Assembly (NCBI GenBank): GCA_017450205.1
Contig: JAFSVF010000017.1
Location: forward strand, 1 to 64,000
Reading direction: 5' to 3'
Source: Bacilli bacterium
GTDB lineage: Bacteria > Bacillota_I > Bacilli_A > RF39 > UBA660
Length of the DNA stretch: 64,000 nt
Numbering within the stretch: position 1 is the stretch's first letter; each line of letters begins with the position of its first letter. The position numbers and the translations under genes are program-made. Below, in pieces: positions 20,459 to 37,215 of the stretch. The notes beneath the pieces are model-generated. The model was not told the DNA's origin and did no database searches. It saw only the letters and a program-made list of their open reading frames with translations.

Positions 20459-22543
20459 ATGGACATATTAAAAGGTTTAAATAAAGAGCAACTTATGGCA
20501 GTAAAACATATAGATGGACCATGTCTTGTTATGGCGGGAGCAGGATCAGGTAAAACTAGAGTTTTGACAACAAGAATAGTAAATTTACTTGAAAATGGAA
20601 TAGATGATTATAATATTTTAGCAATTACATTTACTAATAAAGCATCTAAAGAAATGAGAGAACGTATTACTAAAATGTATGGAGAAACATCAGCATTTAT
20701 TGGTACATTCCATGCTTTTGGTTTAACTATATTAAGAAGATATTATGGTCTTTGTGGATTAGAAAAGAACTTCACTATAATTGATAGTGATGATTCTTTA
20801 TCAATTATAAAGAAAATATTAAAATCTAAGAATTTAGATCCTAAAAAATATAGTCCATATGCAATTCGTAATAGAATATCTTTTATTAAAAATGAAGATT
20901 TAAGTGAAGTTGAAATTTCAAGAACTATGAATAGTCCATTAGATAAAATATATATAGAAATATATCATAAATATCAAAAAACATTAGAAGAATCTAATGT
21001 TGTAGATTTTGATGACCTACTATTAAAACCAGTTAGATTATTTGAAAAAGATCCAGATATCTTGTCAGAATATCAAAATAGATATAGATACATATTAGTA
21101 GATGAGTATCAAGATACAAACCCAGTACAATATAAACTTTGCAAACTACTATCATCTAAATATAGAAATATCTTTGTAGTAGGAGATATGAATCAAAGTA
21201 TATATGCTTTTAGACAAGCAGATTATAAAAATATTGAATATTTTGAAAGAGATTTTAAAGATTGTACAGTATATAAACTTGAAGAAAACTATCGTAGTAC
21301 AAATAATATCTTAAATGCTGCAAATCAAGTTATTAAAAATAATACTCACAGAAAAGATTTAAAACTATGGAGCGAAAAAGGTGATGGCTTAAAAATTAAA
21401 TATAAAAGATGCTATGAAGAAAAAGATGAAGCTCATTATGTAGTTGGCGAAATAAAAAAACTACTTGATGAAGGTGTAAGAAGAAAGGATATAGCAATCC
21501 TTTATAGAACTAATGGTCAATCGCGTGTTATCGAAGAAGAAATAGTTAGAAATAACATTCCATATAAAGTTGTTGGTTCAGTATATTTCTATAACAGAAA
21601 AGAAATTAAAGATCTTATTGCATACTTAAGACTTATATATAATCATAATGATTCAATTTCTTTAAGAAGAATAATAAATGTTCCTAAAAGAGGAATTGGT
21701 CAAACTTCTGTAGATAACTTAAGTGATGAAGCTGAACTTCAAGAAATTTCAATGTATGAATGCCTATCAAGTAAAAAAGAACTTGAATTTAAAAAACTAA
21801 TTGAAGAATTAACTGAAGATTCAAAGAATATGAGTTTAACATCATTAATTGATACAATCATAACTAAGACAGGAATCAAAGATGAATTACTATCAGAAGA
21901 ATCAATCGAAGCTGAACTTAGATTAGATAACTTAATGGAATTTAAATCAGTTACCGAAAACTTCGAAGAAAATGAAGGCATTGTTGATTTAGGTGCATTT
22001 CTTGAAGAAGTTTCATTAGTTGCTGATATGTCACAACATCGTGAAGATGGTGATGAAATAACATTAATGACTATACATGGTGCAAAAGGTCTTGAATTTG
22101 ATGTGGTATTCCTAGTTGGTATGGAAGAAGGATTATTTCCACATTCTAATGCATTTAATGAAGAAGATGGAGTTGAAGAAGAAAGACGACTTTGCTATGT
22201 AGGTATTACACGTGCTAAAGAAATACTTTATATGACAAATACAAAAAGAAGACTTCTATATGGTCAAACAAAAGAAAATACAGTATCTAGATTTATAAAA
22301 GAAATTGATGATTCATTATTAGATAATCAAAATGTTGGTGATACATCGCTTGAAAAACCAATTGATTCTAGTAAAATGTATGTTGAAGGTAATAATGATG
22401 ATATAAGTATTGGAGATACTATTAGTCATGAAACATTAGGGCTTGGAGTAGTAGTAAAAGTAGATGGATCTCTAATAGATGTTGCCTTTAAATCAGGAAT
22501 AAAAAAACTGATGAAAAATCATAAGAGTATTAAGAAAGTGTAG
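20459..22543 (+). CDS. pcrA: ATP-dependent DNA helicase PcrA/UvrD
   Basis: Superfamily 1A 3'-5' helicase used in repair and in clearing proteins from DNA. Seen: Walker A GAGSGKTRV near residue 25, ITFTNKASKEM (motif Ia), DEYQDTNPVQY (motif II), VVGDMNQSIYAFRQA (motif III), TIHGAKGLEFDVVFLVG (motif V) and RRLCYVGITRAKE (motif VI). The C-terminal 45 residues keep the small PcrA domain (HETLGLGVVVKVDG ... GIKKLMKNH) that contacts RNA polymerase in relatives. 694 residues, slightly short because the C-terminal linker is brief. Confidence 0.96.
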   Translation: MDILKGLNKEQLMAVKHIDGPCLVMAGAGSGKTRVLTTRIVNLLENGIDDYNILAITFTNKASKEMRERITKMYGETSAFIGTFHAFGLTILRRYYGLCGLEKNFTIIDSDDSLSIIKKILKSKNLDPKKYSPYAIRNRISFIKNEDLSEVEISRTMNSPLDKIYIEIYHKYQKTLEESNVVDFDDLLLKPVRLFEKDPDILSEYQNRYRYILVDEYQDTNPVQYKLCKLLSSKYRNIFVVGDMNQSIYAFRQADYKNIEYFERDFKDCTVYKLEENYRSTNNILNAANQVIKNNTHRKDLKLWSEKGDGLKIKYKRCYEEKDEAHYVVGEIKKLLDEGVRRKDIAILYRTNGQSRVIEEEIVRNNIPYKVVGSVYFYNRKEIKDLIAYLRLIYNHNDSISLRRIINVPKRGIGQTSVDNLSDEAELQEISMYECLSSKKELEFKKLIEELTEDSKNMSLTSLIDTIITKTGIKDELLSEESIEAELRLDNLMEFKSVTENFEENEGIVDLGAFLEEVSLVADMSQHREDGDEITLMTIHGAKGLEFDVVFLVGMEEGLFPHSNAFNEEDGVEEERRLCYVGITRAKEILYMTNTKRRLLYGQTKENTVSRFIKEIDDSLLDNQNVGDTSLEKPIDSSKMYVEGNNDDISIGDTISHETLGLGVVVKVDGSLIDVAFKSGIKKLMKNHKSIKKV

Positions 22544-32421: not shown

Positions 32422-33567
32422 ATGAGAAGATTGAAGGGAATAATTTTAATAATTTTAGCTTTAATATTTACTTATTTTTATTTTGTGTTTATTAAAGTGG
32501 CATGCCCAAATAGCGCACCTTGTATTATGGCATCATTCATTTGCGTTCTTGCTTATTTAGCATATGAATTTTATGGTTTTCCAAGATTTAATGATACTCC
32601 AATACAAGTCACTATTATTAGGGGTATTATAGCAATTATGGTAATATACTTTATAGTATTATATGTACTTGGTATATTCTCTGGTTATGTAAAAAATACA
32701 TATAGTTTAACAACTTTAATGGTTGTTATTAGTTTAATAGCAACAGAAATATTTAGATATATTTTAATAAATGCAAATAGAGATTCAGATATTTTTCCGT
32801 TCTTAACAACTTTAACATTAATAATATTAGAAATATCCACTGTTTTAGATGTTAATGTAATGATATCAACCGGATCATTTGCAATTTATATAGCAACGGT
32901 TATTACACCGATAATTATAAGAAATATATTATTAACTTTATATTGTCAACACATAAATATAAGACTTGCAATCATATATTCAATAATAGTACTTCAATAC
33001 AAAAGTATTATTCCGATAATACCTAAACTAGATGATTTTATATATTCATATGCTGACATTTTATTATCTTTCATGGTCTTAACAATGAGTTATAGAGTTA
33101 TTATTAAGAATTATGAAGGATATCCAATGATTGGCCTTAAAGACGGATTTAGTTTCTTAGATATTCTGATATTTATATTCTTTGTTAGTTTTGGAATATT
33201 AGTTAGTGGAGTAACTCCAGTTCAATTGTATGTTACAACTAATAAGATTAATCATGTATCAATTGAAAAAGGAGATGCACCAATTGTTTTTAAGGGAGTA
33301 AATGCATTCTCATTACATGAAAAAGATATAATTATGTATTTAAATGATAATGATGAATTAAATATTTATCCAATAAATACACTTGAAATTGTTAAACCAA
33401 CAAATGCTGAAGAAAAAGAACAAAGAAAATTATATATTTTAAATGATGATAATGAATTAGAACTTATCGATAATAAAAGAATTAAAGCAAAAGTTATATT
33501 TAATTTAAAATATGTATTTAAACCATCATTGGATGCTAAAAAGTATTTAGGTGGAGGTGCAAAATGA
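32422..33567 (+). CDS. Polytopic membrane protein with C-terminal S26-like domain
   Basis: 381 residues: about eight hydrophobic helices (residues 5-265) then an extracytoplasmic C-terminal domain of about 110 residues. That domain contains IEKGDAPIVFKG and LHEKDIIMYLN, spaced like the GD and GDI blocks of SipW-type signal peptidases, but the Ser-Met catalytic motif is absent, so if related it is inactive. It ends in the only TGA stop I found in the window, overlapping the next start (ATGA). No family confirmed. Confidence 0.7.
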   Translation: MRRLKGIILIILALIFTYFYFVFIKVACPNSAPCIMASFICVLAYLAYEFYGFPRFNDTPIQVTIIRGIIAIMVIYFIVLYVLGIFSGYVKNTYSLTTLMVVISLIATEIFRYILINANRDSDIFPFLTTLTLIILEISTVLDVNVMISTGSFAIYIATVITPIIIRNILLTLYCQHINIRLAIIYSIIVLQYKSIIPIIPKLDDFIYSYADILLSFMVLTMSYRVIIKNYEGYPMIGLKDGFSFLDILIFIFFVSFGILVSGVTPVQLYVTTNKINHVSIEKGDAPIVFKGVNAFSLHEKDIIMYLNDNDELNIYPINTLEIVKPTNAEEKEQRKLYILNDDNELELIDNKRIKAKVIFNLKYVFKPSLDAKKYLGGGAK

Positions 33568-34037
33568 AAAAAGTTTTAAAAACCTACGCACCAACATTGG
33601 TACTTATCTTATGTTTGTATTTTATACTTTTTAATTTAATTACGACAAAACCAAAGTTATTAATAATATTTATAACTTCATCTATTATGATAGTATTAAT
33701 TAAAACATTATGTGAAATGATAACTACATTTAATGAACAATCTGAATTTAAAAAAGAATTATGTAATTATGTTAGAACATATGGTTTTATTTTAACTAAG
33801 GTAGATAATATTCCAAATATAAATAGTTTTAATATATTTAAAGTAAAAAGTTTTGATAAAATCCTTGAAAAAGCAATGGAAGATAGAGTTAATATGATTT
33901 ATGTTCAAGATGATCATACATGTGATTTTCTGTTCACAAGTGGTGGTAACTTATACATTTATACTATTAAAGAAAGTGAAAAGTATTATTCAAGGGTAGA
34001 TAAATACTTTATTCAACAACAAACAGTACTTAAATAA
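33564..34037 (+). CDS. Membrane protein with small soluble domain
   Basis: 157 residues: two transmembrane helices (about 10-27 and 32-50) followed by a cytoplasmic-looking domain with KVDNIPNINSFNIFKVKSFDK and a C-terminal VQDDHTCDFLFTSGG. Overlaps the preceding gene by four bases, so translation is coupled. Not recognised. Confidence 0.7.
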   Translation: MKKVLKTYAPTLVLILCLYFILFNLITTKPKLLIIFITSSIMIVLIKTLCEMITTFNEQSEFKKELCNYVRTYGFILTKVDNIPNINSFNIFKVKSFDKILEKAMEDRVNMIYVQDDHTCDFLFTSGGNLYIYTIKESEKYYSRVDKYFIQQQTVLK

Positions 34038-34056: not shown

Positions 34057-34117
34057 CTTTCTCAAAAATTAGATTTTATGTTATTATTTAATTAGAAGTA
34101 GCATATGGGGTGTTTTT

Positions 34118-34867
34118 ATGAGAAAGCTAACAATAAAGGATAATGATGTATTTATTGAATTAGATGGAATAATAACTGCTATCGTTGGTCCTACTAATTC
34201 TGGTAAAACTGTTATATTAAAAAAACTATGTAATAGAATAGAAAACAAAGATGTAAAAATAGATGATGTACCTATTGATGAATATGATATTAATTTTTTA
34301 AGAAATAATATTGTTGTATGTTTAGATGATAATGAATACAAACAAGAATATGTAGCAGAAGAATTATTTCATAATTTAAATCTATTAGGTTATAGAATTG
34401 ATGAAATAACTTCTAAGATTGAAGAAATAACTAAAATATTTAAAATAGAAAAATTAATGTCAGAAAGAATTGATTCTTTATATCTAGAAGATAAAATTCT
34501 AGTCAAGATATTATCATTTTTAATTGTTGATCCAAAAATAATAGCTATAGATGATTTATTCTCATATTTAGACCCTAAAAAATTAGAAATATTATTTGAT
34601 TATATAAGAAAAAAAAATATTTCAATGATATATGTTACAACTAATCCAGAACATTTATTACTTGCAGATGATATTGTATTAATGAATAACTATAAAGCAA
34701 TTATTTGTAGTGATCGTAGACAATTCTTCTCAGGTAATAGTGTACTTCCTTATATGGGATTAGGACTTCCTTTCATAATAGAAATGTCTCATAATCTTGA
34801 ACTATATGGTTTAGTAGATAAAACATATGAATCAATAGAAAAGGTGGTAGATCATATATGGAAATAA
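34118..34867 (+). CDS. Degenerate ECF-type ABC ATPase (EcfA1 position)
   Basis: 249 residues, ABC-ATPase fold. Seen: intact Walker A GPTNSGKT near residue 26, Walker B with D-loop PKIIAIDDLFSYLDPKK near 143, but the ABC signature is SLYLEDK where LSGGQ is expected, the catalytic Glu is Asp (IDDLF for LDEP), and the H-switch His is Asn (VTTNPEH). It may bind ATP but is unlikely to be a normal transport ATPase. Its position before a second ATPase, truA, rplM and rpsI is the standard EcfA1 slot of Firmicutes. Confidence 0.75.
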   Translation: MRKLTIKDNDVFIELDGIITAIVGPTNSGKTVILKKLCNRIENKDVKIDDVPIDEYDINFLRNNIVVCLDDNEYKQEYVAEELFHNLNLLGYRIDEITSKIEEITKIFKIEKLMSERIDSLYLEDKILVKILSFLIVDPKIIAIDDLFSYLDPKKLEILFDYIRKKNISMIYVTTNPEHLLLADDIVLMNNYKAIICSDRRQFFSGNSVLPYMGLGLPFIIEMSHNLELYGLVDKTYESIEKVVDHIWK

Positions 34868-35484
34868 TGTATGTTAATAAAAGTAATATAGAACTTAAAA
34901 CTACTGCACTTTATGGAGATGTTTTAGATTTAATTGATATGGGAGTAGATGTCGAAGGAATTGAATATGATGATAACTGGACAGTAAAAAAGTTCTTATC
35001 TAATTCACTACTTGCTAAAAAAAGAATTGAAAATGTATTTAAATATTTAGATTTAGATACTAAATACTTAAATTGGAAAATAAAAGAATTATCTAAAGTA
35101 ACATTTAAATATGTATTATTAAGTCATGCTTTACTTAATAATAAGAAAATTCTAGTATTTGAAAGATTTGAAATAGGACTTTCAAATAAAGAAAGAAAAA
35201 ATATTGTTCAAATAATAAAAAAATTAAAAAATGATGGAATAACAATGATATTTGTGACTAAAGATTTATTATTTGCAAATCAAATTGTTGAAAACATCAT
35301 AGTTATAAAGAATAAAAAAGAAGTATTTAATGATTCAATAGATAAGTTAATTACAAAAAAGAATATTATAGACATGCCACCAGTAATTAAATTTGTTGAG
35401 TGCGCAAATAAAAAGAAAGCAGGTTTAACTTATACATTAGATCATAAAGAATTGTTAAAGGATATATTTAGAGAGGTTGTCTAA
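34858..35484 (+). CDS. Pseudo-ATPase, remnant of EcfA2
   Basis: 208 residues. Seen: alignment to the second half of an ABC ATPase through KELSKVTFKYVLLSHALLNNKKILVFERFEIGLS, where LSGGQ, the Walker B Asp and the catalytic Glu are all replaced; no P-loop exists in the first 60 residues (ALYGDVLDLIDMG stands where it should be). The frame is intact and has a ribosome site, AAGGTGGTAG, so the protein is probably made. It overlaps its neighbour by 10 bases and truA by one. The usual ecfT gene is missing. Confidence 0.7.
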   Translation: MEIMYVNKSNIELKTTALYGDVLDLIDMGVDVEGIEYDDNWTVKKFLSNSLLAKKRIENVFKYLDLDTKYLNWKIKELSKVTFKYVLLSHALLNNKKILVFERFEIGLSNKERKNIVQIIKKLKNDGITMIFVTKDLLFANQIVENIIVIKNKKEVFNDSIDKLITKKNIIDMPPVIKFVECANKKKAGLTYTLDHKELLKDIFREVV

Positions 35485-36203
35485 TGAGATTTTTAATAAG
35501 TGTTAGCTATGACGGAGAAAAACTATATGGTTTTGAACGTCAACCAAGAAAGAAAACTGTTCAAGGCGAACTTGAAAGAGTTTTAACTAAAATCAATAAA
35601 ACTACTGTACTTGTTAAAGGAGCAGGAAGAACTGATAGGGGAGTCCATGCTTATGATCAAAAGGTTCATTTTGATTTAAATGTTAATATTACACCTGAAA
35701 GATTAAAAAGAGGAATGAACTCTATGTTAGATCCAAGTATATATGTTAATTCAGTAAAAGTAGTTAGTGATGAGTTTCATGCTAGATTTGATGTTAAAAA
35801 GAAAATATATAGATATGATATTAATTTAGGAGAATACAATCCAATAATTAATTCATATGTATATAATTACAATAGAAATCTAAACGTATCGGCTATGAAA
35901 AAAGCTTCTAAATATATGTTAGGAATAAACTCATATGAAGCATTCACATCAGGTGAAAGAGAAAACTATAATTCAATAATTTATAAAATAACATTTAGTA
36001 AAAAGAAAGATATCTTATCAATTAAATTTGAAGGTAAAGCTTTTTATAGATATATGGTTAGAAATTTAGTAGGTGCTTTAATATTAGTTGGTGAAGGAAA
36101 AGAGAAACCAGAATATATTAAAGAACTTATTACTAAAAAAATACGTAAAAAGTATGTTACGGTACCTGCAAATGGGTTATATTTGATGAAAGTTGATTAT
36201 TAA
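35484..36203 (+). CDS. truA: tRNA pseudouridine(38-40) synthase TruA
   Basis: Isomerises uridines 38-40 in the anticodon arm of tRNAs. Seen: ISVSYDGEKLYGFERQP at the start, the catalytic block GAGRTDRGVHAYDQKVHFD with the active Asp near residue 52, and FYRYMVRNLVGALI near 187. 239 residues, normal. Starts on the last base of the preceding stop, in the conserved position upstream of rplM. Confidence 0.96.
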   Translation: MRFLISVSYDGEKLYGFERQPRKKTVQGELERVLTKINKTTVLVKGAGRTDRGVHAYDQKVHFDLNVNITPERLKRGMNSMLDPSIYVNSVKVVSDEFHARFDVKKKIYRYDINLGEYNPIINSYVYNYNRNLNVSAMKKASKYMLGINSYEAFTSGERENYNSIIYKITFSKKKDILSIKFEGKAFYRYMVRNLVGALILVGEGKEKPEYIKELITKKIRKKYVTVPANGLYLMKVDY

Positions 36204-36271: not shown

Positions 36272-36355
36272 TGGTACATTTTTCAAATTTGTAAGGTTAT
36301 AAGAACTGGGAATTCTTATAATTGAGCAATAATTAATTTGAAAGGAAAATTTAAA
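36272..36355 (+). promoter_or_regulatory. Structured 5' leader of rplM (probable L13 autoregulatory leader)
   Basis: TTTCAAATT (36281-36289) pairs perfectly with AATTTGAAA (36335-36343), which overlaps the start of the ribosome site AAAGGA. Inside lies a perfect 9-bp hairpin TTATAAGAA/TTCTTATAA (36297-36321) with loop CTGGGAA. An RNA with this plan upstream of rplM fits the known L13 leader of Firmicutes in position and logic; I have not matched it to the family model. Confidence 0.65.
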
Positions 36356-36790
36356 ATGAAAACAACATTCATGGAAAAGAAAGAAACTGTAAAAAGAAAT
36401 TGGTATGTTATCGATGCAACTGATTTAACTTTAGGTAGACTTGCTACTGAAGTTGCTAACTTACTAAGAGGTAAAGGTAAAGTTACTTATACTCCTCATG
36501 TTGATTGTGGAGACTTCGTTATCGTTACTAATGCTAACAAAGTTAAGTTAACTGGAAACAAATTAAACGACAAGATGTACTATAATCATTCTGGATTCCC
36601 AGGTGGTTTAAGAGAAAGAAACGCTGCTGAAATGATTGAAAAATACCCAGTAGAAATGATTGAAAGAGCTGTAAAAGGTATGTTACCTAAAAATCGTTTA
36701 GGACGTCAACAAATCAAAAAATTAAAAGTATATGCTGATGATAACTACGTTGAAAAAGCTCAACAACCAAAAGAATACAAGGTTAAATAG
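36356..36790 (+). CDS. rplM: 50S ribosomal protein L13
   Basis: Early-assembling large-subunit protein. Seen: [20 protein letters not shown] near residue 12, [18 protein letters not shown] near 57 and the family block [20 protein letters not shown] near 107. 144 residues, normal. The ATG at 36356 is used because AAAGGA precedes it; the in-frame TTG at 36338 overlaps that site. Co-transcribed with rpsI. Confidence 0.97.
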
Positions 36791-36801
36791 GAGGGTAATA
36801 C

Positions 36802-37215
36802 ATGAGTAAAGTTATAACAGCTAGTGGTAGAAGAAAAAGATCTATCGCTCAAGTAAAAATGGTTCCTGGTTCAGGAAAAATAACTGTTAATGGAAAAGAC
36901 GTAAGAGAATACTTACCATTCGAAGTTAATGTTATGAATTTAATGCAACCTTTAGTTGCAACTAAGAACGAAACTACTTTCGATATCGATGTTGTAGTTA
37001 AGGGTGGTGGCTACAGTGGTCAAACTGAAGCTATCAGATTAGCTATTACTAAAGCATTACTTGTTTATGATGAAAACACTGATCCAAATAGTGATTCATC
37101 ATACAGAAAAATCCTTAAAGCAGCTGGTTTCATTACTAGAGATCCAAGAGTTAAAGAACGTAAAAAATACGGTCTTAGAAAAGCTCGTAGAGCTCCTCAA
37201 TTTAGTAAGAGATAA
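36802..37215 (+). CDS. rpsI: 30S ribosomal protein S9
   Basis: Small-subunit head protein whose C-terminal Lys-Arg tail reaches the P-site tRNA. Seen: GRRKRSIAQVKMVPGSGKI at residue 9, GGGYSGQTEAIRLAITKALL near 73 and the basic C terminus ERKKYGLRKARRAPQFSKR. 137 residues. Starts 12 bases after rplM with AGGAGGGTAAT. Confidence 0.97.
   Translation: MSKVITASGRRKRSIAQVKMVPGSGKITVNGKDVREYLPFEVNVMNLMQPLVATKNETTFDIDVVVKGGGYSGQTEAIRLAITKALLVYDENTDPNSDSSYRKILKAAGFITRDPRVKERKKYGLRKARRAPQFSKR

Follow-up and report, generated by a model that had tools for sequence, protein, structure and literature searches.

The window analysed here is a stretch of 64,000 nucleotides (contig JAFSVF010000017.1 of assembly GCA_017450205.1, our contig C11) from the draft genome (1.41 Mb, 92% complete) of a Bacilli bacterium (GTDB lineage Bacteria; Bacillota_I; Bacilli_A; RF39; UBA660), in which two genes, here A1 and A2, lie before truA and two further genes that we take to be rplM and rpsI from their sequences and from the gene order of the Bacilli ecf operon (Table 1). 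The earlier note had placed this pair in the ecfA1-ecfA2 slot of that operon and had described open frames with ribosome sites and tight overlaps; coordinates, strand and profile comparison agree with the placement, and we found a likely ribosome-binding site before each of A1 and A2, GAGAGG before the truA start and overlaps of 10 nt and 1 nt. The ancestral order of the Bacilli operon is A1-A2-(T)-truA-rplM-rpsI, as far as the consulted portion of the source goes (PMC8046335), and the constant neighbourhood of truA is inherited gene order and no evidence of function.

Table 1. Genes and sequence features of the A1-A2 locus, in positions of the window
Feature	Positions	Strand	Remarks
Likely ribosome-binding site of A1, GGGGTG	34107..34112	+	from sequence
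A1, EcfA1 orthologue by profile comparison	34118..34867	+	249 aa; signature, catalytic Glu and H-loop His missing
A1 Walker A GPTNSGKT, kept	34187..34210	+	G24, G29 and K30 invariant in 22 EcfT-less A1
SLYLEDK at the A1 position of the LSGGQ signature	34475..34495	+	from alignment
A1 Walker B IAIDD	34541..34555	+	D145 kept, catalytic Glu replaced by Asp
A1 C-terminal helices (LPF..LS..L..Y)	34733..34864	+	putative dimerisation region, after group II EcfA
Likely ribosome-binding site of A2, AAGGTGG, within A1	34841..34847	+	from sequence
A1/A2 overlap, 10 nt	34858..34867	+	A1 end TGG AAA TAA, A2 start ATG GAA ATA
A2, EcfA2 orthologue by profile comparison	34858..35484	+	208 aa; N-terminal P-loop core lost
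A2 C-terminal region, conserved	35332..35481	+	from alignment and profile comparison
truA	35484..36203	+	TIGR00071, 189.5 bits; 1-nt overlap with A2
rplM (presumed)	36338..36790	+	follows truA in the ancestral Bacilli ecf operon
rpsI (presumed)	36802..37215	+	from sequence and operon order

Upstream of A1 lie genes for a membrane protein of 381 aa (32422-33567) with no Pfam match and for a 157-aa protein (33564-34037) with a sub-threshold DUF5305 match, and of all the loci compared G007 alone has them as well. At other loci (L059, L067, L071, L076, L080, L081, L087 and L094) the pair is preceded by several small genes in a row (about 70, 88, 96, 104 and 100 aa), of which the last two have predicted membrane segments, and in G044, where the pair is gone, such a row stands directly before truA. 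Elsewhere in the window (22148-22245) a match to Rfam n00280, a C. difficile sRNA within a helicase gene, scored 66.2 bits against a gathering score of 65.2 and may be coding similarity.

Profile comparison with hhalign aligned the A1 group of the window with the A1 group of genomes that have EcfT over 246 columns (E 2e-55), and its A2 group with the EcfA2 group over 155 columns (E 3e-31), both alignments reaching the C-terminus; the match of the same A2 group to the A1 group was weaker (E 2e-15). By this comparison, A1 is a full-length orthologue of EcfA1 and A2 an orthologue of EcfA2 that is shorter by about 70 residues, the loss lying in the N-terminal core. The best NCBIfam matches, ECF_ATPase_1 for A1 (76.8 bits) and ECF_ATPase_2 for A2 (46.5 bits), fall far under the equivalog cut-offs of 315 and 330. 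A1 passes the gathering cut-off of the Pfam ABC ATPase family (PF00005; 36.9 bits versus 25) and its best PDB matches are EcfA2 and EcfA1 chains, and A2 matched no Pfam family at E values up to 1. AlphaFold2 runs on A1 and A2 with alignments of three sequences each (window, L039 and L040) gave mean pLDDT values of 39.6 and 48.9, respectively, too poor for a fold search.

Examined for the parts of a working ATP site, A1 of the window retains only Walker A and the Walker B Asp, and A2 retains none. The alignments thus bear out what had been noticed of A1 from its sequence, namely a kept P-loop, SLYLEDK in place of LSGGQ and Asp for the catalytic Glu, and add the kept Walker B Asp (D145). Two details of the earlier note were corrected. 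The H-loop His of A1 is indeed absent, but its position is taken by Thr and the Asn named as its replacement is one residue further; likewise, A2 has lost P-loop and signature as claimed, but the statement that it has no Walker B acid was too strong, as it carries Glu at that position and six of the eight congeners with complete A2 carry Asp (alignments of such degenerate motifs may be one residue off).

As the earlier note had it, ecfT is missing: EcfT (PF02361) was found neither in the host genome nor in any of 10 congeners. PF02361 was detected in only 20 of the 70 draft genomes sampled from the family, whereas all 47 other genomes of the class have it. A family EcfT profile built from 29 family proteins, five of them shrunken to 194-216 aa, matched its 29 source genomes only, leaving 41 of the 70 without a match (hereafter EcfT-less); in five genomes (G018, G024, G052, G066 and G069) EcfT has both shrunk and diverged. 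Nor did we find a normal ecfA1A2T set elsewhere, which had been named as a finding that would reduce the pair to ordinary pseudogenes, in the host genome, in the congeners or with the family profile. Searches of the host genome for S components with four Pfam families gave nothing over the family cut-offs: PF07155, PF09515 and PF02632 had no match, and PF12822 a single one at 7.2e-4 (place unlisted). These absences fit the loss of vitamin uptake that had been suggested for this organism. Across the 70 family genomes PF07155 and PF09515 have no match over cut-off, BioY is absent from all 35 genomes tested, and PF12822 is matched at E 1e-3 in seven, with values under 1e-5 only in G011, G013 and G025. 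The matches in these three may not be vitamin S components, as they lie in clusters with neighbours that are presumably of ApbE- or FMN-binding type. Canonical S components seem nearly absent family-wide, even alongside near-intact EcfA1A2T.

Comparison of the ATPase motifs across the family revealed how far the pair has changed where EcfT is gone. Among 34 EcfT-less A1 proteins, Walker A is kept in 30 and the Walker B Asp in 32, the catalytic Glu in two and the signature and H-loop His in none; of the four A1 without Walker A, two are short (G017 and G054), one has lost it (G030) and one is cut by the contig (G001). The 34 EcfT-less A2 proteins keep Walker A in two, Walker B Asp in 15, Glu and His in three each and the signature in none. 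Where EcfT is present, Walker A, Walker B Asp, signature, Glu and His are found in 21, 21, 11, 16 and 10 of 23 A1 proteins and in 19, 22, 3, 19 and 10 of 24 A2 proteins, respectively, and the five A1 proteins that accompany a diverged EcfT show Walker A in four and signature, Glu and His in none. All ten motif features occur together in no family genome. As read from these motifs, the EcfT-less pairs converge on one motif state; a single fixed end state is nevertheless not universal by the same alignments, given that EcfT-bearing G042 (L079) and G067 (L102) show the opposite asymmetry, with the A1 P-loop lost and the GK and Walker B of A2 kept.

Twelve residues are invariant in the 22 of the 34 EcfT-less A1 proteins that were aligned, namely G24, G29, K30, D145, G214, P218, F219, S224, L227, Y230, W248 and K249. 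The first four stand at positions that in ABC ATPases bind the nucleotide and its magnesium, and the six from G214 to Y230 lie in the C-terminal region of A1. The invariance of W248 and K249 is imposed at least partly by the 10 nt that A1 shares with the beginning of A2. More generally, overlapping start codons and ribosome-binding sites may account for part of the conservation seen in the A1 tail (V..(L/I)WK) and at the ends of A2.

The C-terminal helices of both A1 and A2 are conserved by sequence comparison, and in group II EcfA proteins these helices contribute to dimerisation, according to the portion of PMC6828968 consulted, which also describes an acidic residue that meets an arginine of the EcfT coupling helix. 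Reading this docking position from the alignment to G103, we found the acid in A2 of all 24 EcfT-bearing genomes and of all five with diverged EcfT and in only six of the 34 EcfT-less ones, and in A1 of 20 of 23 EcfT-bearing genomes and in 24 of 31 ungapped EcfT-less rows. In the window it is kept in A1 and lost in A2, the register of degenerate rows being uncertain. The retention in A1 is what would be expected if the pair were still part of a transporter in which a membrane partner that we failed to recognise has replaced EcfT and nucleotide binding alone opens or closes the complex, as one groove could still take a helix. We nonetheless consider this unlikely, since the catalytic residues are gone, the A2 acid has been lost in 28 of the 34 pairs, and the 41 EcfT-less genomes lack matches to PF02361 and to the family EcfT profile alike. 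The upstream gene, moreover, differs between congeners (an unassigned membrane pair in both the window and G007, a DcuC-like gene in L044, BrkB in L045), for which reason we rejected it as a substitute for EcfT.

The slot could be read in 38 of the 41 EcfT-less genomes, and 35 of these keep the pair, with A1 and A2 together seen in 34 of the 41; in G003 the A2 end lies at a contig edge, adjoining truA. Three (G028, G037 and G044) have truA and no pair, so that the pair is not indispensable. G010, G059 and G068 stand outside the count, as no truA match was obtained in them and A1 was seen only in G068. A search for a relocated pair in G010, G028, G037, G044 and G059 gave only general ABC ATPases. 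The tree built from truA, rplM and rpsI has 66 rows, many of them only half filled, and weak support on 22 of its 63 inner branches. In its best version EcfT presence changes at least seven times, indicating that the pair outlived EcfT repeatedly, and the window falls within a 23-row clade that is wholly EcfT-less, with a support of 100. Independent EcfT contrasts on well supported branches number only three, too few for power, and no motif association was significant among them.

The frames of A1 and A2 are under selection at the amino-acid level. In close pairs of genomes dN/dS (NG86) was about 0.10-0.17 for A1 and A2, similar to truA (0.06-0.13): for G000-G001, G000-G007, G001-G007 (three comparisons that have branches in common) and G005-G009 the values were 0.109, 0.101, 0.101 and 0.113 for A1, 0.145, 0.169, 0.113 and 0.117 for A2 and 0.120, 0.071, 0.125 and 0.061 for truA, respectively. 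Pooled by segment, dN/dS was 0.07-0.14 in A1, with a short tail at 0.29, and 0.10-0.19 in A2, whose tail has no nonsynonymous change, every segment of either protein thus staying below 0.3. Simulated neutral evolution at 0.3, 0.6 or 0.8 substitutions per site left 0 of 1000 frames open, for A1 and A2 alike. Neither the broken frame nor the relaxed selection of a pseudogene was found in the pair, and a search for relatives with frameshifts at the locus, named in advance as a sign of decay, came up empty. The earlier view that the two genes look maintained rather than decaying is therefore strongly supported, and we are nearly certain that A1 and A2 are protein-coding and selected.

These results bear directly on the proposal of a slow decay, in which ecfT and the S components were lost first and the ATPase genes are pseudogenes-to-be whose frames are open by chance. 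The stepwise erosion of motifs across the family, the shrinking EcfT in five genomes and the loss of the pair in three are all as such a decay would have them, as is the higher dN/dS of distant pairs (0.30-0.78 for A1 and A2, with the maximum in A2, and 0.20-0.34 for truA, where computable), values that we set aside because synonymous sites are saturated at that distance and that would look like relaxation. Decay is improbable, however, given dN/dS close to that of truA in close pairs, the failure of neutral simulations to keep a frame, the persistence of the pair in nearly all readable EcfT-less slots and across a deep clade, and a conservation centred on nucleotide-binding and C-terminal residues. 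Even less credible is that the frames are kept just so that translation can run on through overlapping starts into truA and the genes for ribosomal proteins, since, for all that the 10-nt overlap recurs in 56 of 62 family pairs with the A2 start codon within the last A1 codons (L041-L105; the overlap differs in the three genomes read from outside the family) and in most EcfT-less genomes the end of A2 falls in a range from 20 nt before the truA start to 11 nt beyond it, selection acts on amino acids over the whole length and three genomes retain truA without the pair.

The reading that we favour, by a modest measure and from sequence comparison, is that A1 and A2 make up an ECF ATPase heterodimer that has ceased to drive transport and is kept as a soluble pseudo-ATPase. 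Its parts differ in strength. ATP-driven transport by the pair is very improbable. That A1 and A2 form a heterodimer is likely by analogy with group II modules, and that A1 binds nucleotide is somewhat less so, though still rather likely from its kept motifs. Because these motors have lost their ATP-burning parts yet selection protects them, the pair probably does another job after the loss of the pump. A putative regulatory or scaffold role, such as the earlier note had in mind, is a tentative assignment.

Under the pseudo-ATPase reading, both proteins would be made together from the overlapping genes and the A1-A2 dimer would be held by the C-terminal helices. A1 would bind ATP or ADP without hydrolysis, in a site that lacks sandwiching by a signature, and the bound nucleotide would alter the shape of the dimer, which could act on a partner as a nucleotide-responsive switch or as a scaffold. 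In an ECF module with an E-to-Q mutation, ATP binding without hydrolysis suffices for closure, as reported in the portion of PMC10368641 consulted; a nucleotide-bound state can therefore carry a conformational signal, though in that case with EcfT and two sites.

Some ABC ATPases, such as UvrA, ABCE1 and ABCF, are soluble and have no membrane domains, and there are also ABC pairs with a degenerate site. They resemble the pair in using the ABC fold beyond transport and in the asymmetry of their sites, but they keep working catalytic sites, whereas the pair described here descends, in one bacterial family, from ECF ATPases. With the group II module EcfA1-EcfA2-EcfT the pair has the orthologous ATPases, the gene order and the C-terminal helices in common; it differs in that no EcfT and no S component were found, in that signature, catalytic Glu and His are missing, and in that A2 has no P-loop and mostly no EcfT-docking acid. 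A likeness for the expected state of A1 is the hydrolysis-dead solitary ECF module with the E-to-Q exchange, where, by the consulted part of PMC10368641, ATP is bound and unhydrolysed; that module is engineered and has EcfT and both P-loops, whereas the pair is natural, EcfT-less and one-sided. In the titles and abstract openings searched, we found no description of an EcfT-less or motif-dead EcfA pair.

It is plausible, though less likely than not, that the pair represents a kind of free-standing ABC pseudoenzyme that is new as a class, in which EcfA1-EcfA2 would have been freed from the transporter in several lineages of this one family and converted in each in the same manner to a one-site nucleotide sensor (A1 binding, A2 non-binding), by which these small-genome bacteria would regulate some process in the cytosol. 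If the pseudo-ATPase reading is true, a transport motor has become a non-transport nucleotide-binding pair several times within one family, with all intermediates alive (the full module, the module in erosion, a shrinking EcfT, the EcfT-less pair and the loss of the pair), and the evolution of an enzyme into an ABC pseudoenzyme would be directly testable here. An ecfA annotation in reduced genomes would then not mean that vitamins are taken up, a point of relevance to metabolic models in which auxotrophies are predicted from gene presence.
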